DNA from: Candidatus Kapaibacterium sp.
GTDB taxonomy: Bacteria; Bacteroidota; Ignavibacteria; Kapaibacteriales; Kapaibacteriaceae
NCBI GenBank assembly: GCA_030833725.1
Contig: JAURGP010000013.1
Location: 10,913 to 43,746 of the forward strand
Length of the DNA: 32,834 nucleotides
Direction of reading: 5' to 3'
A program made the translations under genes and the position numbers. The notes below the pieces were generated by a model that saw nothing but the letters and a program-made list of their open reading frames with translations, was not told where the DNA came from and did no database searches. Of the stretch, positions 8,753-24,565 are shown one piece after another (the first letter of the stretch is position 1; every line of letters begins with the position of its first letter).

Positions 8753-9145
8753 ATGAAATCAGAGATTAACCGCCTGTACTACTCAATTACGGAGATCAGC
8801 GCGATGTTCGGCGAAGAGCCACATGCGCTGCGGTACTGGGAGCGGGAATTTCCACAACTCAGACCACAAAAGAACCGTGCGGGGAAGCGTATCTACGGAG
8901 AGCGTGAGATTCAGGTTCTCCGGGTGATACAATATCTGCTCCGCTCCAAGCGATATACGGTGGCAGGGGCACTCGAGCAGTTGCGACAGACGTCGGTTGA
9001 GGAGCTCCTCAAGCAGATGCAGGAGGCTCCAGAGCCGAAGTCTGTAGGACCCCCTGCGGAAGAGATTCGGGACGTTGTGGCGGAGTTGAGAGGCATTGCG
9101 CGTGAGCTACGCAGGCAGGCCTCGGCAGGGGCTTCGGATTCATAA
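8753..9145 (+). CDS. MerR-type helix-turn-helix regulator
   Basis: A 130-residue DNA-binding protein. Residues about 8-78 form a MerR winged helix: YYSITEISAMFG (recognition start), ALRYWEREFPQL, and a wing with NRAGKRIYGEREI. A short acidic, helical tail of about 50 residues follows and lacks the cysteines of metal-sensing MerR proteins, so a metal or redox ligand is unlikely. This small MerR type is common in Bacteroidota and Chlorobi, usually without known ligand. Its stop codon overlaps the first possible start of the WD40 gene reading frame, and only 38 bases separate it from the chosen WD40 start, so it may share a transcript with that pair. Confidence 0.85.
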   Translation: MKSEINRLYYSITEISAMFGEEPHALRYWEREFPQLRPQKNRAGKRIYGEREIQVLRVIQYLLRSKRYTVAGALEQLRQTSVEELLKQMQEAPEPKSVGPPAEEIRDVVAELRGIARELRRQASAGASDS

Positions 9146-9183: not shown

Positions 9184-10194
9184 ATGTTTCGATCGATTCG
9201 GGTTCTGACGTGGGCAGCCTGCGCAACCGTTGCCATGCTTGCCATGGTTGTTGCTACCCATGCTCAAGACCGCACCTATACCACGCGCATCGTAGGCACA
9301 CACGCCGACGAAGTCTTGGGCGTGTTTGTCAACCAGGCCAATACCATGGTAGCTACGTGCAGCCTTGATGAGACCATCAAGCTGTGGTCCCTGCCCGATG
9401 GCAAAGAGGTCACCACCATCACGGGGCACACGGCGCAGGTCAACAACCTGTCGTTTTCTGGCGACGATGCACAACTCGTAAGCGGCTGTAGTGACGGTAC
9501 TGTTCGCATCTGGGACGTGCCCAGCGGTGCTCCCGTCCACACGCTTCGTGGACATCAAGCTGAGGTGATCGGCGTATACTGGAGTCCGGTCGACGGTTCG
9601 AACATTGTGGCCAGCACATCGTTTGATAAGACGGTGAAGTTGTGGGATGCCAAGCTTGGCATTGAGTTGAAGACGCTGCGTGGACATTCCATGCAAACAA
9701 ACAACGTGGCCTACTCGTACGACGGCAAGTATCTGGCATCGGTGTCGGACGACCGCACGGTGGTGATTTGGTCCACCGATATGGCGTCGAAGGAGCCGAT
9801 CATGGTACTGCGAGGTCATCAGGCACCAGTGCTTACGGCATTGTACTCCTTCGATTCGAAGTACCTGGCTACCAGCGACGAGTACGGTGTGGTCAAGATC
9901 TGGAGCATGCCTTCCGGTGAGTTGCTGCGCACGATCAATGCTCATACGCAACTGGTTCAGGATGTAGCTTTTGCCGAGGACAATACCACCTTGGTGACGG
10001 CTAGCCTGGATAACACGGTGAAAATGTGGAACATCACGACCGGCGCCAACACAATGACGGCCAACGTTGGTGTCGAGGTGTGGTCGATCGACGTGACGAG
10101 CAATGCTGAAATCATTATTCTAGGGTGCGCCGACGGTACGGTTCGTTTCATGACGGACACTGCCTCGAAGTCTGGCCCGGCGAAAGGACGATAA
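9184..10194 (+). CDS. secreted seven-bladed WD40 beta-propeller protein
   Basis: 336 residues: a Sec signal peptide (FRSIRVLTWAACATVAMLA..., likely cleaved after THA near residue 27) followed by seven WD40 repeats that fill the rest. Typical blade ends are TIKLW, TVRIWD, TVKLWD, TVVIW, VVKIW, TVKMW and TVRFM. It has no lipobox, so it is probably a soluble periplasmic protein. I chose the ATG at 9184 over 9145 because GAGAGG at 9172-9177 is a good ribosome site and the signal peptide starts directly there. The gene sits two bases upstream of a regulatory-domain/OmpA-like gene. WD40, then carboxypeptidase-regulatory, then OmpA is the domain order of the T9SS protein PorE, so the pair may be a split PorE (inference). 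Confidence 0.9.
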   Translation: MFRSIRVLTWAACATVAMLAMVVATHAQDRTYTTRIVGTHADEVLGVFVNQANTMVATCSLDETIKLWSLPDGKEVTTITGHTAQVNNLSFSGDDAQLVSGCSDGTVRIWDVPSGAPVHTLRGHQAEVIGVYWSPVDGSNIVASTSFDKTVKLWDAKLGIELKTLRGHSMQTNNVAYSYDGKYLASVSDDRTVVIWSTDMASKEPIMVLRGHQAPVLTALYSFDSKYLATSDEYGVVKIWSMPSGELLRTINAHTQLVQDVAFAEDNTTLVTASLDNTVKMWNITTGANTMTANVGVEVWSIDVTSNAEIIILGCADGTVRFMTDTASKSGPAKGR

Positions 10195-10196
10195 CC

Positions 10197-10940
10197 ATGA
10201 ACCAATCACGAATGGGAATCATGAATACGGCTCGTTTTGTTCTGGCAACCATGCTCCTGCTGGTTGTGGCTTCTGGTGGCACGGCCATCGCTCAGTCAGC
10301 GATCGGTACGGTCACAACACTGTCGGGAATGGTGCTTGATCAGGCAACACTCCTGCCGGTGGAGGCGAACTACGGCGTCTACGATGCACAGGGTAAGAAG
10401 ATCGGTCAGAGCCGCATCGCCAGTGCCTCAGATGGCTATCTCGTTACTGGGTTGAAGCCGGGTGAGCGCTACGTTATTCGCGTGGAGGACCCGCGTTACC
10501 TGAAGCAAGAACATGGCATTACCATGCCACCGTCGGGAACCTACACGGAGGTATCGAAGGACATTACCGTACGGAAACTGGCCGCTGGCAGTACCTTCGC
10601 CATGACCCCTGCACCGTTTGATCTGAAGAAAACGGACGTGAAGAGCGGCACCGAGGACGACCTGCGGATGCTGGCAGCCATGCTGGTGATGAATCCCAGC
10701 GTACGGATTCAGGTACTATGCTATCCCGACGAAGACCTGCCGGCAAAGCGTGCCGAAGAAGTGAGTCTGCAGCGTGCCTCGGCACTGAAGTCTTTCCTCC
10801 AGAAGGAAGGAGTATCCGCCGAGCGTATCAGTGTGAAGGCGGCGCAGAGCACCGACCCTCTCAACCCTCCGCCAGTGCGTAAGGGTGCCAAAGGGAAGCG
10901 CTATATCGGTTCGGTCTACATCACGATGACGGACGTGTAA
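10197..10940 (+). CDS. secreted carboxypeptidase-regulatory/OmpA-like protein
   Basis: 247 residues. A signal peptide (about 1-34, ending AIAQ) precedes a small beta domain at about 40-110 with the pattern SGMVLDQATLLPV...SDGYLVTGLKPGERYVI, like carboxypeptidase regulatory-like domains. An OmpA C-terminal-like domain follows at about 125-247: a FDLKKTDV segment, then LRMLAAMLVMNPSVRIQV, SLQRASALKSFLQKEGV and RISVKAAQ. The usual GHTD motif is replaced by CYPDED and the final NRRVEF by a different strand, so peptidoglycan binding may be weakened, though the RA of the LSxxRA helix is kept. AAAGGA before the ATG at 10197 supports the start. It is two bases from the WD40 gene and is probably co-translated with it. 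Confidence 0.8.
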   Translation: MNQSRMGIMNTARFVLATMLLLVVASGGTAIAQSAIGTVTTLSGMVLDQATLLPVEANYGVYDAQGKKIGQSRIASASDGYLVTGLKPGERYVIRVEDPRYLKQEHGITMPPSGTYTEVSKDITVRKLAAGSTFAMTPAPFDLKKTDVKSGTEDDLRMLAAMLVMNPSVRIQVLCYPDEDLPAKRAEEVSLQRASALKSFLQKEGVSAERISVKAAQSTDPLNPPPVRKGAKGKRYIGSVYITMTDV

Positions 10941-10955
10941 GAGACTCGATACACT

Positions 10956-11006
10956 CTCGGCGCGAGCGCGGCCGATCCCTGAAGATCGTGCTGGTCTCGC
11001 GCCGAG
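10956..11006. repeat. perfect 11-bp inverted repeat with a nested hairpin
   Basis: CTCGGCGCGAG at 10956-10966 pairs perfectly with CTCGCGCCGAG at 10996-11006. The 29-base loop contains a second short hairpin, CGATC (10973-10977) with GATCG (10984-10988). It lies 15 bases after the OmpA-like stop and just before the tRNA-Cys promoter region. There is no T-run, so it is not a classical intrinsic terminator. It could be an mRNA 3' end structure, a weak terminator or a protein site. Confidence 0.6.
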
Positions 11007-11045: not shown

Positions 11046-11116
11046 GGTCCCGTGGTAGAGTGGCTATACAGAGCTCTGCAAAAGCTCGTACGGCGGTTCG
11101 AATCCGTCCGGGACCT
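11046..11116 (+). tRNA. tRNA-Cys (GCA)
   Basis: A full cloverleaf of 71 bases. Acceptor stem GGTCCCG/CGGGACC has seven perfect pairs. The D stem is GTA/TAC with a GG-containing loop. The anticodon stem GAGCT/AGCTC closes the loop CTGCAAA with anticodon GCA. The variable loop is four bases, and the T stem GGCGG/CCGTC closes TTCGAAT. The discriminator base is T73, the known identity base of tRNA-Cys. The 3' CCA is not encoded. The tRNA is 30 bases upstream of efp and probably shares its transcript, so tRNA processing would free the efp message. Confidence 0.95.
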
Positions 11117-11146
11117 CTTTTTGTCACTGACAACATCCTACGAGAT

Positions 11147-15836: not shown

Positions 15837-17411
15837 ATGGAACTACAGCACATGAATGAACAGGTCGGACTTGATCAGCAGATTGACCAATGGGTAGGCA
15901 ACGCAACCGGATGGTTTGTGGATTTCATCTTCTACCAGTTTCCCATTGGTGATGTGTCCATCCCTTGGGTGCTGATTCCACTGATCTTGGGTGCGGCCTA
16001 CTTCACGCTGTACTTCTCACTGCCCGGCTTTCGGCTGTTTGGTGTTGCCATCAATACGGTACGTGGTGCATATGAGAAAGCATCGCTCATGCCAGCCGAT
16101 CTCAACGTCTCCGGAGGAGACCAACCCGACACAATCCGGGAAGAAGGTCACGACGGAGAGGTGAATCACTTCCAGGCACTTACAGCTGCGTTGTCGGCCA
16201 CCGTTGGCCTAGGTAACATCGCTGGTGTTGCGGTTGCCATTGCCGTGGGAGGACCGGGGGCCACCTTCTGGATGATTCTTGCTGGTATCCTAGGGATGTC
16301 GTCCAAGTTTGTCGAGTGTACGTTGGGTGTGAAGTTTCGTGATATCGGTCCAGACGGACGGGTCTATGGCGGTCCGATGCAGTACCTGCGTAAGGGGCTG
16401 GCATTGCAAGGCATGCCCAGGATGGGCAAGATCTTGGCAGCGGTGTTTGCCGTGATGTGCATTGGTGGATCCTTCGGTGGTGGCAACATGTTCCAGGCCA
16501 ACCAAGCAGCGGCCATCTTCATCAACAAGTTCGCCATCGAGGCCTCCTATGCGGGCACGCTGTTTGGCTTGGTGATGGCAGGGCTGGTGGCCATCGTGAT
16601 CATTGGTGGTATTCAGCGTATTGCCGTTGTGACCGAGAAAATCGTTCCCTTCATGGCGGCGCTCTACGTTGGGGCTGCCTTGATCATTGTGGTATCACAC
16701 TTCGATCAAGTTCCGGATGCCATTAGCCAGATTTTCAATGGAGCATTCACCGGAGCCGGCATCACGGGTGGCATTCTTGGCGTGGTGATACAAGGCTTTC
16801 GCCGGGCGGCCTTTTCAAACGAAGCCGGAGTAGGTTCCTCGGCCATCGCGCACTCCGCCGTCAAGACGAAACACCCCGCCAGCGAAGGTGTTGTGGCACT
16901 GCTTGAACCATTCATCGACACCGTCGTGATCTGCACGATGACGGCTATCGTGATTGTCCTGTTCAACATGAATGGGGCGTTCGAGTATGGTTCCACTGGT
17001 GCTGGTGGTGGCGTGTACGTAGCCCAGATTGGCGCAGAACTCAGCGGCGTGGATTTAACGTCGTATGCCTTCGACCGCGAGATCACCAACTTCTCCTATG
17101 TGCTGATGATTGCCGTGATCCTGTTTGCCTTCTCCACGATGATTTCGTGGTCGTACTATGGCCTGCAGGCATGGCTGTACCTCTTTGGCCGGAGTAAGAC
17201 GCAAGAGCTGGTCTACAAGGTGCTCTTCTGCACCTTTGTTGTGGTGGGCGCTGCCGCGCAGCTCAACAGCGTACTCAACTTCTCGGATGCGATGATCTTT
17301 GCCATGATGGTACCCAACATGATTGGACTCGTGCTCCTGGTTCGCTACGTGAAGCACGAGTTAGATCAATACCTTCAGGCCATTGGTCACCGGAGAACAA
17401 CAAAGGGCTGA
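15837..17411 (+). CDS. sodium:alanine symporter (AgcS family)
   Basis: Inner-membrane secondary transporter that takes up alanine or glycine with Na+. 524 residues, with about ten to eleven hydrophobic helices. The family signature GGPGATFWMILAGILGM...KFVECTLG is near residues 138-160. Further conserved parts are GNIAGVAVAI, SNEAGVGSSAIAHS and a long cytosolic C-terminal stretch. The start is uncertain: ATG 15837 and ATG 15852 both fit; an earlier one at 15753 would overlap the peroxiredoxin promoter side. The substrate (alanine, glycine or both) is not certain. The last 25 bases overlap the end of the convergent C25-like gene, and no terminator separates them. Confidence 0.93.
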   Translation: MELQHMNEQVGLDQQIDQWVGNATGWFVDFIFYQFPIGDVSIPWVLIPLILGAAYFTLYFSLPGFRLFGVAINTVRGAYEKASLMPADLNVSGGDQPDTIREEGHDGEVNHFQALTAALSATVGLGNIAGVAVAIAVGGPGATFWMILAGILGMSSKFVECTLGVKFRDIGPDGRVYGGPMQYLRKGLALQGMPRMGKILAAVFAVMCIGGSFGGGNMFQANQAAAIFINKFAIEASYAGTLFGLVMAGLVAIVIIGGIQRIAVVTEKIVPFMAALYVGAALIIVVSHFDQVPDAISQIFNGAFTGAGITGGILGVVIQGFRRAAFSNEAGVGSSAIAHSAVKTKHPASEGVVALLEPFIDTVVICTMTAIVIVLFNMNGAFEYGSTGAGGGVYVAQIGAELSGVDLTSYAFDREITNFSYVLMIAVILFAFSTMISWSYYGLQAWLYLFGRSKTQELVYKVLFCTFVVVGAAAQLNSVLNFSDAMIFAMMVPNMIGLVLLVRYVKHELDQYLQAIGHRRTTKG

Positions 17412-19480
17412 GTCTCGGTGGTGCCGTTCCTCTGGATCTGCAGCGTGTACATACCACTGGCGAGTTCTCGTGCAGGAATCGTGATGGTGTGTTCTCCTCC
17501 AGTCATCGCCAATTCACGGGCTTGCCACAGGATGGTACCCACCTCGTTAACGAGTCGTATGTGGTAGGTTCCTGATTCGTTGGACACGATGCGCACAACA
17601 GCCTGGTCGGTTGCCGGGTTGGGAGACACGGTAACTGTCACGCTGGCATCAACGGGAGTTTCGGCCACACTGGTTGGCACAAGACGCGTTTCAGCCCCCT
17701 TCCCCATGTCGAAGTAGGTGCCACTGGCCGATGAGCGCCGATGCAAGGCATGCACACGATACTGGACTTCGTTGATCAACCGGAAGCTATCGAGCACTTC
17801 GGTGGTACGAACGGGCGCCTGCGAAACGATCTCCCATCCACGCAGAGCACTCCGCCAGCGATACACGACGTAGCCATCTACCGGCTCGGCAGGGGCATCC
17901 CACGAAATGCGAACGGCTGTGGAACTCTCCTGTGTGGATCGTGCAGATGCAACTGCTGGAACGGGGCTCATCGAGGCGCGAAGCGTTGGATCACCCATCA
18001 GAGCGATGTGAATGCCGGCGTCGCCAATGCTGGCTAACTGGGCGTTGGTGCCATTGTAGATCACGTTGGGCGTGTACGTACCCAGCGCACCGGACACGTT
18101 CGTGCGGTTGTTCTGGCTGAGGCGCGTGCTATAGCCAAGTGGCCAGCCGAGAGCCATATGGTGCATGTACCAGGCTGGACGACCCGCCCACGAGCACGCG
18201 AGCGTTGATGGGCCAGAGGCCAGCGCCGCGCGTAACAAATTGTTCCGCACATTCCAGTCACCGAAGTAACTGCCAAAGAGCTGTGTGAACACAGCCTGCG
18301 TTGGCTTGGTGGCAAAGTCCGTGCTGTTGCCTACGCCGTTACAGCTGGTAAACGATCCGGCACCGCAGCCGTAGGCCCAGAGATAGGTGGTAGGTCCGGC
18401 CAGACTCTCAAACCAGTCAGCAGCGCGCACGGAGTCGGCCCCACCGAACGGTGCGAACGACCTCCACCCCGTCGCGGCAAAGAATTCTCCGTACGTGCCG
18501 AAGTTGTCGTCGATGATACCTCCAGGCTGCACCGGCACCTGACCTGTGCGGTAGGCAAGATTTTTTCTCAGGTACTCGCGCAACAGCTCCACTTCCGAGG
18601 CTTGAAACACCGGCAGATCTGAGAGGTCCACACGTCCAACACCGACCTCGATGGCCGAGGCAAACTGGGATTGGTCGTACTTGCCATCACCGATCACGTT
18701 GGCCTGGATCGGACGTTGATCGTTCACCGTATTGGTGTTGCCATCGGTGTACATGCCGTCGATGTCTCCATAGATTCCGTCGGCCGGCCATGCTCCGAAG
18801 TGATCGGGGACGTGCCCGTCTGGTGCAACAGCTCCCGAGTAGGGCACGGCCACCTTACCCAAGAGTAGGATATGCTCTAGGTCCCAGCGATTGGACGAAC
18901 CAACCTCGCGAATCACCGTACGGATGTATTCAACGGCAGAGGCGTCGAACCCCTCGGTACGAGGCACCAGCTGCATGGTCACCGTCCACGCTTCAGCCTC
19001 CATCGCAGCCCGCAGCTGATCAATCTCGCTGGCAAGGGCTGGTGCTACGGTGGAGTCCACCAGCAGCAGGACTCGGCCTCGTAGCTGGGGCAGTGCGTCG
19101 ATACCACTCGTGATGTATCCAAAGGCGAGAAACCGCTTCGCAGGGTCTCCTACGCTTACCTCTCGCACAACACGATACTCGTACGCCTGATAGGGTGCCA
19201 CCGAAGTATCGGTCCACGATGTTGCGCTAGCCTCGGGAGTCGCAATAGGGGGCTCGGGCCACACCGATGACGATACGGATTTCCGGTACACCGACAAGGA
19301 CGTCGTTCCAGGCTGTGCATCCCACTGGAGGGTGATCCGTGGTTGCGGCTCGGATGACGACTCCAGTGTGACTGTAGCCGAGAGCAGGACGGCCAGTTGT
19401 TTCGGTTGCTGGGCCAGCAGTAGAGTGCTTGAAACCAGTTCGACGGAGAGAACGAGTACGAGGGTCAGGATCTGCTTCAT
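17387..19480 (-). CDS. T9SS-exported C25-like caspase-fold protein with substituted dyad
   Basis: 697 residues from the ATG at 19480, which starts a clear signal peptide (MKQILTLVLVLSVELV...LAQ). After a fibronectin III-like domain (about 40-130) comes a gingipain/C25-like core at about 150-460 (ILLLGKVAVPYS, VGVGRVDLSDLP). A second fibronectin III-like domain (about 490-580) follows, then a T9SS type A sorting domain (about 600-697: SPNPATDQAVV, GMYTLQI). In gingipains a His-Gly motif and a distal Cys form the dyad. Here the first site reads AYGCGAG (Cys372), and the distal segment FGSYFGDW (402-409) has no Cys. A later stretch with Cys429 and WAGRPAW...HHM (His440, His441) looks conserved and may be an alternative site. 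Other in-frame starts up to 19537 lack a signal peptide start. Confidence 0.8.
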   Translation of the reverse strand: MKQILTLVLVLSVELVSSTLLLAQQPKQLAVLLSATVTLESSSEPQPRITLQWDAQPGTTSLSVYRKSVSSSVWPEPPIATPEASATSWTDTSVAPYQAYEYRVVREVSVGDPAKRFLAFGYITSGIDALPQLRGRVLLLVDSTVAPALASEIDQLRAAMEAEAWTVTMQLVPRTEGFDASAVEYIRTVIREVGSSNRWDLEHILLLGKVAVPYSGAVAPDGHVPDHFGAWPADGIYGDIDGMYTDGNTNTVNDQRPIQANVIGDGKYDQSQFASAIEVGVGRVDLSDLPVFQASEVELLREYLRKNLAYRTGQVPVQPGGIIDDNFGTYGEFFAATGWRSFAPFGGADSVRAADWFESLAGPTTYLWAYGCGAGSFTSCNGVGNSTDFATKPTQAVFTQLFGSYFGDWNVRNNLLRAALASGPSTLACSWAGRPAWYMHHMALGWPLGYSTRLSQNNRTNVSGALGTYTPNVIYNGTNAQLASIGDAGIHIALMGDPTLRASMSPVPAVASARSTQESSTAVRISWDAPAEPVDGYVVYRWRSALRGWEIVSQAPVRTTEVLDSFRLINEVQYRVHALHRRSSASGTYFDMGKGAETRLVPTSVAETPVDASVTVTVSPNPATDQAVVRIVSNESGTYHIRLVNEVGTILWQARELAMTGGEHTITIPARELASGMYTLQIQRNGTTETQPFVVLR

Positions 19481-19483
19481 ACG

Positions 19484-19526
19484 TGAAAATACGCTGTTCG
19501 TTGGGTGACGACACTTCGTATTTTGA
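19484..19526. repeat. mirrored promoter-like boxes between the divergent T9SS cargo genes
   Basis: TGAAAATACG (19484-19493) and CGTATTTTGA (19517-19526) form an inverted repeat with nine of ten positions paired, centred in the 51-base gap. The left arm read on the - strand (GTATTTTCA) is about 4 bases before the - strand ATG. The right arm is 5 bases before the + strand ATG. Each fits a -7 element for its own gene, giving near-leaderless transcripts, or the pair is a binding site for one regulator. Confidence 0.5.
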
Positions 19527-19531
19527 CAGCG

Positions 19532-22500
19532 ATGCAAAATCCCTTACTACGACTCCTCATTTGGGGAGTCGTCATCGTTGGATGGGCCACTGAGATGGCC
19601 TACGGACAGGCCGCCTGCGACCGCTGGAAAGACTGTCTCGGACGAGCTGTAGAGCTGTCCGTGACGAGTGGCCGCGACCATCACTTCATCGAAGTCGACG
19701 GGCAGGTTACCGCTCCGCGTCAAACAGCGCTCACTGTAGAGATGTGGGTGAAGGCAGAACGGCAGCCCGGGAAGCGCGTCTTCCTTGGCGGACTCTGGGG
19801 CCCGAATAACGATGCCAACGACCAGTGGGTGCTCTACATCAACGAGGCCGACCAACTGTCCTTCGAGGTCAACGCAGAGCTTACGGATCTGAAGGACATC
19901 GACAACACCGTTACGCGAGCCCCGTACACGGCCTACTACGATCAATGGACCCATGTTACCGCAGTGTTCGACGGATCTGCGCAAACCGTAGCGCTCTACA
20001 TCCAGGGCATACTGGTGGCTGGCCCGGTGCGAAACCCGGCCTATCCCGTGGAGTGGCTACGCCCCATGGAGCGAAACGATCTCCAAACGCGCATCGGTTC
20101 GATCAATGGTCTGGCTGATAACGCAACGGTGTACCGGGCACTAAAAGGGATGGTTGATGAGGTACGGATCTGGTCCCGAGCCCTCACAGCCAACGAGATT
20201 CTCTGTGGCCAGGAATCTTCGATCAATGCCCCGCAGCCCGGACTTACCCTGTACTACCGCTGCAATGAGCCGGTGAACAACATCAATCCCATCTGTGATG
20301 CTACCAACAATGGCCACACCGGACAACTCCGGTCGGGCGCCATCAACAAGAATTCTGGTCGAAGTTTGCCTCGGTACGTCGTGGTGAGTCCGTCGAGTGT
20401 GACACAGGAACTCTACTGTGATAGCACAGCTACGTGGACTTTTACCATTCAGGATACCAGCATCTGTGGAAGCTCAGTCACCACGCGCATGCGTGGTCCG
20501 GAAGCCGCAGCGTTCACGGTAACGCCGCGAAATCTGACGCTCATACCCGGGCAACCGCAAACGATCACCGTGACGTACAACGGTACCAACGTGGGCACCT
20601 TCACCAACGAGCTGCAGGTCAGTCCCACCAATCGCTGTGGTTACACGCAGTTAATCAAGCTCACCCTGACGCGCACGACGGAGGTGAGTGTCAGCCGGGC
20701 AACGATACTATTCGACACGCTATTGGTGGGGTGCAGAGATGTCACGTACCATGACTCTACCATCACGGTATGTAACACCACCGACCAGCTGGGTCGTCCG
20801 CGCGTGGTAACGATCAACTCGATATCTGGCTCGAATCCTCGGGCCTACCGTGTGATGAATGCCAGCTTCCCGATGCAGCTGCAGCCGGGGCAGTGTACCA
20901 CTCTTGTCGTGCGATCCTTCGTGATGGACACCACGGACGATTACGTCGATACGCTGCGTGTAGTCAGTGATGATCAGTGTCAAAGCCGACCGTTTACCAT
21001 TGCCATCTCAGGACGGACGCAGGAAGTGATTTCGATTCGCTCCTCCGACGGCAGCCGACGCATTGATACGATGTCCTTCAACCCCACGTGTCCGGGACAA
21101 CTGAGCAACCCGGCCTACTACACGTGGCAGAACCTGACCCTAACCGACATCCAGATCGACTCGATCTACGTCCCAGCCGACTTTACGCACTATCGCGTGG
21201 GATTGCCCTTCTTGCTGAAACCCAAGACGGGCTATCCTCCCATTGCGGTGCGGTTCCGTCCGCGCAATCCCGGTAACGTCTTCGACTCCATCCTTATTCG
21301 CACCGTTGCACGTGGCTGTCAGATTGAGCGCGTGATCTATGTGCGGGGTAGGGGGCTGGACAACAAGGTGGAATGGGAGCAGGCCGGCCCCATCGATGTG
21401 GGCAACGTGATCGTCGGCCAGCAGCGCACCGTAAACGTGGTGGCACATAATCGATCGCCGTACGATGCCCTACGGGTAGCGTTGTATGTAGAGCGTGGAG
21501 AGGCATTCACGCTTCTGGCTGGAACGGGACGCACGATTGCACCGATGAGCTCGGTGAGTATTCCGGTGACCTTCCGTCCAACAGATTCGATCGAGTACGT
21601 CGATCGCCTGTGTTTGTTCGAGACACGATGCTACACGGTGGACTGTATCGAGCTGCGAGGTCGCGGTATTCTGGAGACCTTCCGGTTCTCGCCGCTGGTA
21701 ACGGAAACGGAGAACGTGATTGCTTGCCGCAGCGGTTTGGATACGTTCTGCATTGTAAACATCTCCGGGACGGAGCAGACCATCTCGCAGCTGAATTTCA
21801 GTAATCCAAGTGGCCGGTATGCCCTGGTAGATCCGCCAGCGTTACCGGCACAAATGACGATTCCGGCCGGTGATTCGGTATGCTTTATCGTGGAGTACAC
21901 GCCCAATGATCTGACGAACGATCGTGCCGACCGTGCCTACCTGCAGTACAAGGCAACGGGTGGCATCGATTGGCAGATCCAGCTCATTGGGTCGTCGGCA
22001 ACGCCCAAGCTCTTCGTCACGCAGCGCACCGCCTACGGTACGATCGAAGTTGGTGATGCGCGTATCGAGACGCTTATCGTGGAGAATACGTCGTCGTTGC
22101 CGGTGATGCTGGATAGTCTCACACTGGGAGGGGGCTACAGTATTGTGGGCACCACACGCCCCTTACCAACCCTTCTGGACCCACGAGACTCGCTGGCCGT
22201 GCTCGTGGAGTTCCGCCCCGCGGCGGCGCAAGCCTACAATACCTCCATCGTGGCTCACTCGAGCGATCCCTGTGCGATCACTGGCACAGGCGAGCTGGAG
22301 GGACGAGGAGTGATCATCGAGCTGGAGAACGCCATCACCCTGGTCAACTTCGGTTACGTTCGACCATGCGAGTGTTCCGAGCGAACCATTGAGCTGCTCA
22401 ATGCCTCGCAGGTATTCGGCATGCAGGTAGACTCGCTCTGGATTGATGCTCAGGGTATTCCTACCGGTAAGCCGGAGTTCTTCACCTGGACGTCCACGTA

Positions 22501-24565
22501 CTCACCGACCGGCACGGTGCCGTATACCATTCCGGCGCAGAGCCGCGATACCGTAACAGTTCGGTTTTGTCCGAACACACCGGCCGACTCGACGTCCACG
22601 TTGGTAGAAGCGTTGCTGCATGTGCAGGCCAGTGGATCGGGATGGAGTCGTGAGCTGGAAACGTACCTGTATGGGAAGCGCTCGCTGACCTTTACGCCAT
22701 GGCCACGTCTGGTGCAGTTCCCATCTGGTGTGATCGACGTCCTCAGTCCGGCAGCACGCAATGTGGACTTGCGCATTCCGGGCTTTAACGTCAATCCATC
22801 CCAAGATCCCGTCACCATCGATTCGATCACCTTTGAACCCGACGAGCGGGTGTTCTTCGTAACACAGCCAACGGCGTTCCCCTTCACGATCACTCCCGGT
22901 GATGTGGTGCGACTAGAGCTCCGGCAACGTCCGCGGGCACCCCGGGATTACGAGGCACGGATGGTGATCCATTACAGCGATCCCTGTGTTGGCCGTGATA
23001 CCACCGTTCTGGTGCGTGGATCAGGATTTGCGCAACCACGTGGATTGTCGTTTTCGTTCGACCCTCAGCGCGCACTTCCGGATACGTTCAGCATGGTGTC
23101 CTGCGACACGCTGCTGGTTCCAATCTACAGCTCCATCGTGATTGACGCCTCGGTAGTTGATGTGATGATGCGGGTGGATTTTGATACCACGCAATTGCGA
23201 CTCTTGGACGTCCAGTCGCCACTGTTGCAGAACTCTTGCACATCGGCTACCGGTGGTATCGTGTACACGCCATCGATCCAGACAACGCCCTCGGTCCGCG
23301 GTGGAGTGGATGTGCTGATGAAGAACTTCTGTGGGATTGACTCGCTGTCGGCCTTTAGCATCCTGCGTTTCGTGACGGTTGCAAACAACCGCGTGGACAG
23401 CCGGGTGGTGATCGATAGCATCAACTTCGACACCGAGGATGTGATTCTCTACAAGCTGATCGCCACCGGTGATCGGGGACGTGTGCTGGGATATCTCTCC
23501 GAAGTCGAGGTTGTTCAGCCGACGCCTTTTGATAGCGTGCGCATTCTAGACTGTCGTGAACAGGTCATCATCGTGCGCAACGTTGGAGATGTTGCACACA
23601 CGGTGGATTCGCTTCTAGACCTGCCGCTGAACACCACGATTGTGAGCATCATGCCTCCCGTAGGGGATAGTATTGCTCCCGGTGACAGTGCAGAGATCAC
23701 GGTGCGCTTCTGTCCGCGTTCGGAGGACTCCGTTGGTTCTGCACCGATCGCCGTAAGTATGCGTCCGTGCGACACGCGCGATACGTCGTCGATCACGGGC
23801 TTCGGCTATGCACCGGAGTTAGACGTGGCCGTTGCAGCCACGCCAACGTTCTTCCGGATTGATACCGTTGCCGGCACCATTGGCGATACCATCGAACTGC
23901 CGGTGATGATCGATCGCGACCTCTCAGCAACGTACAACGGAGTCACCTACTGGTTGGAGGGTCTGTCGTTTACCACGCAAGTGCGCTATGCGGCCAGATC
24001 GCTACAGTTTTTGGACGCCCCCTACTTGGCCCAGCCTGGATCGATGACCGTGGATCAACCCTCGGTTGGTACCGTGGTGATTCACGTGCAAGGGGCCGAC
24101 AGCGTGCGCTCGGGTCCGTTGGCGCGGCTGCGCTTCCTCGTGACCGTGCCGGAGTTTGCGCAAACGGACGTGTCGGTTGCTGCTGCAGGGTTCATCAGCG
24201 ACTCGCTCCAGTTTCTCGATGTAGTTCCGTCGGGTGCCGCTACACCATTTGTGACGTCGGGCGAATGCCGATTGACGGTGCTGAACTTCAGTACACCTGC
24301 GCCATCATCGATTCGCGTTCTACCGCATCCCGTGCATGATGATGCTACGGTACGGTTCACCATGGCCGAGACCGTGCCCGTCACGCTACACCTGTTGAAC
24401 ACGCAGGGAGTAGTGGTCCGTGAGCTGCTTGATGGTTCGCAGCGGCTCATGGGCGGGGAGTACCAAGCAGACTTCTCTACGCGCGACCTGCCATCGGCCG
24501 TGTACTACCTGCGCATTGCTGCCGGCGTGTTCACGTCAACCATTCCCGTTGTGGTGGTCCATTAG
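19532..24565 (+). CDS. giant T9SS cargo: LamG, choice-of-anchor-D repeats, cohesin-like domains, sorting domain
   Basis: 1677 residues from the ATG at 19532 (a GTG at 19505 adds nine residues without benefit). A signal peptide (to about residue 26, ending AYGQ) is followed by a LamG/concanavalin-like domain at about 40-240 (TVEMWVKAE...QWTHVTAVFDG...GMVDEVRIWSRAL). Many anchor-D/HYDIN-like beta repeats fill about 270-1160, seen as recurring phrases such as PGQ...ITVTYN and FRP. Two cohesin-like segments lie at about 1170-1290 and 1415-1570. The last 90 residues are a T9SS type A domain (LPHPVHDDATV, AVYYLRIAAG). It probably forms a surface or released adhesive/structural protein. It is Cys-rich for a secreted protein, suggesting disulfides. 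The last 30 bases overlap the convergent helicase gene. Confidence 0.88.
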   Translation: MQNPLLRLLIWGVVIVGWATEMAYGQAACDRWKDCLGRAVELSVTSGRDHHFIEVDGQVTAPRQTALTVEMWVKAERQPGKRVFLGGLWGPNNDANDQWVLYINEADQLSFEVNAELTDLKDIDNTVTRAPYTAYYDQWTHVTAVFDGSAQTVALYIQGILVAGPVRNPAYPVEWLRPMERNDLQTRIGSINGLADNATVYRALKGMVDEVRIWSRALTANEILCGQESSINAPQPGLTLYYRCNEPVNNINPICDATNNGHTGQLRSGAINKNSGRSLPRYVVVSPSSVTQELYCDSTATWTFTIQDTSICGSSVTTRMRGPEAAAFTVTPRNLTLIPGQPQTITVTYNGTNVGTFTNELQVSPTNRCGYTQLIKLTLTRTTEVSVSRATILFDTLLVGCRDVTYHDSTITVCNTTDQLGRPRVVTINSISGSNPRAYRVMNASFPMQLQPGQCTTLVVRSFVMDTTDDYVDTLRVVSDDQCQSRPFTIAISGRTQEVISIRSSDGSRRIDTMSFNPTCPGQLSNPAYYTWQNLTLTDIQIDSIYVPADFTHYRVGLPFLLKPKTGYPPIAVRFRPRNPGNVFDSILIRTVARGCQIERVIYVRGRGLDNKVEWEQAGPIDVGNVIVGQQRTVNVVAHNRSPYDALRVALYVERGEAFTLLAGTGRTIAPMSSVSIPVTFRPTDSIEYVDRLCLFETRCYTVDCIELRGRGILETFRFSPLVTETENVIACRSGLDTFCIVNISGTEQTISQLNFSNPSGRYALVDPPALPAQMTIPAGDSVCFIVEYTPNDLTNDRADRAYLQYKATGGIDWQIQLIGSSATPKLFVTQRTAYGTIEVGDARIETLIVENTSSLPVMLDSLTLGGGYSIVGTTRPLPTLLDPRDSLAVLVEFRPAAAQAYNTSIVAHSSDPCAITGTGELEGRGVIIELENAITLVNFGYVRPCECSERTIELLNASQVFGMQVDSLWIDAQGIPTGKPEFFTWTSTYSPTGTVPYTIPAQSRDTVTVRFCPNTPADSTSTLVEALLHVQASGSGWSRELETYLYGKRSLTFTPWPRLVQFPSGVIDVLSPAARNVDLRIPGFNVNPSQDPVTIDSITFEPDERVFFVTQPTAFPFTITPGDVVRLELRQRPRAPRDYEARMVIHYSDPCVGRDTTVLVRGSGFAQPRGLSFSFDPQRALPDTFSMVSCDTLLVPIYSSIVIDASVVDVMMRVDFDTTQLRLLDVQSPLLQNSCTSATGGIVYTPSIQTTPSVRGGVDVLMKNFCGIDSLSAFSILRFVTVANNRVDSRVVIDSINFDTEDVILYKLIATGDRGRVLGYLSEVEVVQPTPFDSVRILDCREQVIIVRNVGDVAHTVDSLLDLPLNTTIVSIMPPVGDSIAPGDSAEITVRFCPRSEDSVGSAPIAVSMRPCDTRDTSSITGFGYAPELDVAVAATPTFFRIDTVAGTIGDTIELPVMIDRDLSATYNGVTYWLEGLSFTTQVRYAARSLQFLDAPYLAQPGSMTVDQPSVGTVVIHVQGADSVRSGPLARLRFLVTVPEFAQTDVSVAAAGFISDSLQFLDVVPSGAATPFVTSGECRLTVLNFSTPAPSSIRVLPHPVHDDATVRFTMAETVPVTLHLLNTQGVVVRELLDGSQRLMGGEYQADFSTRDLPSAVYYLRIAAGVFTSTIPVVVVH

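Follow-up and report, generated by a model that had tools for sequence, protein, structure and literature searches.

A canonical WD40 propeller protein and a CRD-OmpA protein are encoded side by side in a draft genome of the Kapaibacterium order (1.98 Mb, 98% complete, T9SS present). Judged by genome comparison, the two genes are an order-specific unit that is inherited and lost together. The pair is built like PorE or TolB-Pal and is a member of neither. We lean towards regarding it as a two-chain, peptidoglycan-anchored periplasmic scaffold specific to the order, which would serve as an accessory and dispensable envelope or outer-membrane-stabilising unit and not as part of the T9SS core. 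An earlier note on this DNA had proposed that the pair is PorE in two chains. Its view of the genes as one unit with a PorE-like second protein is upheld by their adjacency and joint loss; the propeller type and the separate PorE-like proteins of the genome speak against the identification itself.

The gene pair and its neighbourhood

The window, the whole stretch of 32,834 nucleotides that was analysed, holds the pair between a regulator gene and a tRNA gene.

8753..9145, + strand: MerR-family regulator gene (PF13411, 2e-17; synteny), immediate upstream neighbour of the pair
9184..10194, + strand: secreted WD40 propeller protein, seven-bladed and canonical, 336 aa (PF00400, 6e-57; Sec signal peptide, no lipobox)
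10197..10940, + strand: secreted CRD and OmpA-like protein, 247 aa (PF00691, 1e-9; Sec signal peptide, no lipobox)
10956..11006, no strand assigned: strong inverted repeat CTCGGCGCGAG...CTCGCGCCGAG (z -3.2, no T run), just 3' of the pair and 5' of tRNA-Cys
11046..11117, + strand: tRNA-Cys (ARAGORN), which bounds the unit and marks the empty site in relatives lacking the pair

The WD40 reading frame runs from an ATG at 9184 to a TAA ending at 10194, and the CRD-OmpA frame from an ATG at 10197 to 10940, leaving a gap of 2 nt; a purine-rich, ribosome-binding-like stretch lies upstream of each gene. The earlier description of two adjacent secreted proteins, two bases apart and with a lipobox on neither, was correct in its coordinates and agrees with both sequences. 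On the 3' side follow, in order, tRNA-Cys, efp, accB and accC. Conservation beside the pair extends to merR and, within family f1, to housekeeping genes. The merR gene is the conserved immediate 5' neighbour in 51 of 66 loci and is single copy in 24 of 25 genomes. Because genomes without the pair retain it, a role as a pair-specific regulator is unlikely.

The propeller and its probable wall-binding partner

The Pfam WD40 model PF00400 recognised six stretches in the first protein, and the model of an orthologue contains 28 strands (7 x 4), in agreement with the seven-bladed WD40 propeller described earlier. Neither the TolB model TIGR02800 (at E 0.1) nor the NCBIfam PorE model NF052230 matched this protein. 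It is 57-77% identical across the order, compared with 34-61% for its CRD-OmpA partner, so that the propeller is the more conserved member; in the 30 best loci of relatives the corresponding ranges are 57-76% and 33-64%.

Both domains assigned earlier to the second protein were recovered. The OmpA-like domain scores 38.9 bits with PF00691 (cut-off 27.2); the CRD is weak in Pfam (16.4 bits against 32.3) and clear by profile-profile alignment and by its CnaB-like fold. The AF2 model of the protein (pLDDT 90) has the Pal/OmpA fold and matches solved OmpA/Pal domains at VIA Z 12-14, some of them with DAP peptides bound; PorE's own domain, 6TOP, ranks 22nd among these fold matches. Among solved chains, Pal is the best sequence match of the OmpA domain and is also close in fold. 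The protein nevertheless lacks a lipobox and reaches only 21.8 bits with the Pal model TIGR02802, whose cut-off is 125.35. PHROGs returned nothing for it.

In PorE, Arg591 holds the DAP carboxylate, with additional contacts from Asp576 and Asn584 (PMC7192894). D178, A186 and R193 of the CRD-OmpA protein occupy the same spacing (0, +8, +15), and D178 and R193 are invariant in 30/30 relatives, 15 residues apart like Asp576 and Arg591. An Asn at the third site, position 186, occurs in only 12 of the 30. F141, found in all 30, aligns beside the place of PorE Phe541. The GHTD motif is lost, as had been noted, and CYPD stands in its place, but its Asp is kept in 30/30 relatives. Since the DAP-contacting Asp178 and Arg193 are invariant, peptidoglycan binding by the OmpA-like domain is likely and wall binding is probably intact.

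A second short secreted CRD family, with a degenerate OmpA-like part and about 260-336 aa long, was also observed (L136 1769-2776 on the minus strand, L139, L140 and L150). It occurs in pair-less genomes as well, next to a gene for an enoyl-CoA hydratase; three of the four cases also have clpC there.

Conservation and joint loss across the order

The survey covered 60 relatives, with a CRD-OmpA orthologue in 41 and none in 19. A WD40 gene lies directly 5' of the CRD-OmpA gene in 30/30 best loci of these relatives, and the adjacency of the two genes is therefore not chance. The same arrangement was seen in all 38 carriers checked, namely these 30 loci and eight further ones, with the carriers G034, G051 and G057 outside the count. 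An independent named collection shows the WD40 gene next to its partner in 62 of 66 loci, and a contig end truncates two of the four exceptions. In 71 of 86 loci the two genes are no more than 30 nt apart. Signal peptides of the ordinary Sec type occur in the window and, with few exceptions, in the relatives.

No WD40 orthologue was found in the 19 genomes without the partner, three of which have only partial matches inside proteins of 979-1346 aa. Five relatives of one sister genus (G012, G014, G016, G020 and G022) show the order merR-tRNA-Cys-efp-accB, with both flanks present and the pair missing. A small tree built from neighbouring genes unites these five, with support of only 0.71, and a single loss is thus the simplest reading there. 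The pair is also absent from all sampled members of families f5 and f7 and from two single genomes, one of which (G052) is only 91% complete and in about 610 contigs. Across the phylum, the short dedicated CRD-OmpA form, at 200-364 bits, is confined to the order, and the top-scoring proteins beyond it are longer and reach no more than 124 bits.

Some genomes have a further CRD-OmpA copy that lacks a WD40 neighbour (L144, L146, L085 and L100), so the CRD-OmpA chain may also act alone. This Kapaibacterium-type locus also occurs in three MAG records filed under Bradyrhizobiaceae, Desulfobulbaceae and Melioribacter roseus (L046, L094 and L108), which are probably mislabelled or contaminated.

Predicted contact between the two chains

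In the orthologous pair L022 and in seven others, the two genes by chance share a reading frame, which allowed the two proteins to be modelled as one read-through chain; the alignment (A5) contained only in-frame natural neighbours as paired rows, together with WD40 rows. The AF2 model of the orthologous pair, a single run on an artificial chain, reached a pTM of 0.81 for its 573 residues; 36 residues between the domains fall below pLDDT 50 and form an unstructured linker. As this exceeds the pTM of about 0.55 that we estimate from the pTM formula for unplaced domains, the complex prediction proposed earlier suggests direct docking of the propeller and the CRD-OmpA chain at a defined interface, in a setting where the artificial chain forces proximity. 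In family f3 (L075 3580-3995; L143, L148 and L149), an extra secreted, stand-alone CRD gene lies between the two genes, encoding a protein of about 130 aa with a Lys-rich C terminus. This arrangement fits the CRD as the docking element of the propeller.

Relation to PorE and the T9SS

PorE (PG1058) of Porphyromonas gingivalis is a lipoprotein with TPR, PD40 (pfam07676) propeller, CRD and OmpA_C domains (PMC5053529) and is required for T9SS export (PMC5053529, PMC7192894). The profile search proposed in the earlier note gave opposite answers for the two proteins. Across both of its domains, the CRD-OmpA family shares homology with the C-terminal half of the PorE-like proteins of the order (hhalign 99.9% over 187 collinear columns), with the same layout of CRD followed by OmpA_C in alignment and fold and the same Asp...Arg DAP clamp. 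The WD40 family, in contrast, aligns with the PorE-like PD40 propeller at only 2.7% and is of the canonical PF00400 type, not the PD40/TolB type of PorE. Both systems would be periplasmic and associate a propeller with this anchor, whereas PorE is a single lipidated chain and the pair consists of two soluble ones. No TPR was present among the matches listed for either protein, and the sequences are too short to house one. SPII lipidation as in PorE is lacking in the pair; most PorE-like proteins of the order also have no lipobox.

Separate PD40-CRD-OmpA proteins in one chain occur in the source genome, where they score 213 and 178 bits; the best is 504 aa long. These correspond in spirit to the separate full-length PorE that the earlier note had named as evidence against itself, but those examined have no TPR part and stay below the NCBI PorE cut-off. 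That cut-off, 600 bits with NF052230, is reached by no protein of the 60 genomes, and the CRD-OmpA protein scores 33.5 bits. PorE-like proteins are present in 60/60 relatives. In a tree of the CRD-OmpA parts, they are set apart as a group by a branch 2.01 long with support 100/100, which argues for an old divergence and not a recent fission. The proposed survey for fused forms found no WD40-CRD-OmpA fusion in 86 loci. A 443-aa frame in G047 was rejected as a fusion, as it runs over the upstream gene. Eight high-scoring long proteins, seven of them from outside the order, have either PD40 (seven) or no propeller, and none has a canonical WD40.

A further one-chain relative is the CHU_0125 type of PD40-CRD-OmpA protein, which serves outer-membrane integrity in Cytophaga hutchinsonii (PMC5891637). 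It shares the CRD-OmpA half and the layout of a wall-anchored propeller with the pair, but its propeller is PD40 and part of the same chain. L001 of the source genome resembles this type (247.8 bits), and the pair hardly does (28.3 bits).

The genome does use T9SS cargo, as stated earlier: a Por_Secre_tail domain lies in the window at 17390-19537, SprA is encoded on another contig, and 54 T9SS CTD matches were counted. No relevant paper emerged from our literature search on the T9SS in Kapabacteria. Of the 60 relatives, 59 have SprA, the sole miss (G018) being an 88% complete genome that carries the pair. All 19 genomes without the pair keep SprA, PorE-like proteins and T9SS C-terminal domains. 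These domains are abundant whether or not the pair is present; each of the five empty-site genomes gave at least 69-78 CTD matches, as many as their relatives. By this comparative evidence, the pair is not a required T9SS part, contrary to the earlier claim that it does PorE's job there. A redundant contribution to the T9SS is possible.

A separate observation in the window is a 1686-aa protein at 19505-24565 that combines a laminin-G-like domain with numerous ASH/HYDIN-type Ig domains, as large surface proteins often do.

Alternative explanations

The idea that this T9SS uses the pair as its functional PorE, divided over two chains, draws on a domain order that is the same minus the TPR, on the homology of the CRD-OmpA half and its weak match to the NCBIfam PorE model, and on the presence of a T9SS in the genome. 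We nevertheless consider it improbable, and in its strict form we reject it, given the propeller type, the one-chain PorE-like proteins in the same genome and the T9SS-bearing genomes without the pair; the deep separation of the PorE-like group and the missing lipobox and TPR also count against it. Scarcely more credible is a surface-anchor accessory, in which the pair would tie certain outer-membrane proteins or T9SS exports to the wall, as has been suggested for PorP/PorE-like complexes with type B CTD proteins. In F. johnsoniae, PorE-like genes beside porP-like genes have been proposed to anchor type B CTD cargo (PMC9143113), and the source genome contains 54 CTD matches. However, no porP-like or cargo gene stands beside the pair in the window, where its conserved neighbours are of other kinds, and CTD matches are no fewer in the empty-site genomes than in their relatives.

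A two-chain substitute for TolB-Pal, in which the propeller would shuttle between CRD-OmpA and an inner-membrane force transducer and so mobilise the wall anchor, is unlikely but deserves more weight. TolB is six-bladed, and Pal is lipidated and has no CRD. The pair likewise places a propeller gene beside that of a Pal-fold protein with predicted wall binding, in two chains, and the resemblance of its OmpA domain to Pal points the same way. None of the 60 relatives has a TolB that passes the curated TIGR02800 cut-off, which makes a tethering role for the pair possible, and one published proposal sees Bacteroidota PorE as a TolB/Pal/CpoB-like fusion (PMC12204202). Conversely, a constriction system that is essential should be retained, and the pair is absent from 19/60 genomes. 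The propeller is moreover a seven-bladed WD40 and not TolB, the partner carries a CRD and is not a lipoprotein, and no TolA-type partner was noticed beside the pair.

Proposed role and implications

The two-chain scaffold is the reading that we prefer, and its accessory nature is argued from the dispensability of the pair in 19 relatives. Both chains would enter the periplasm through their Sec signals. The second has a CRD and, after it, an entire OmpA-like domain in which the DAP-contacting Asp and Arg are conserved; the propeller would dock on this chain and be held by it at the cell wall, leaving free propeller faces to capture an envelope partner. Such a layout joins a propeller to a wall anchor as in PorE, CHU_0125 and TolB-Pal, but with two soluble chains and a different propeller, and an outer-membrane role is suggested by analogy with these three systems only. 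More tentatively, a canonical WD40 may here replace the PorE/TolB-type PD40 propellers on a wall-binding CRD-OmpA anchor, in which case this order-specific two-chain machine would be a third design of outer-membrane-to-wall tether besides TolB-Pal and PorE.

These findings define a conserved gene pair in a poorly studied order, with natural deletions in close relatives. They also caution that not every CRD-OmpA protein counts as a T9SS part. Here the C-terminal half of PorE stands on its own, with a propeller of another type in trans, and such a free PorE-type anchor module lets the role of the anchor be asked about apart from that of the propeller.
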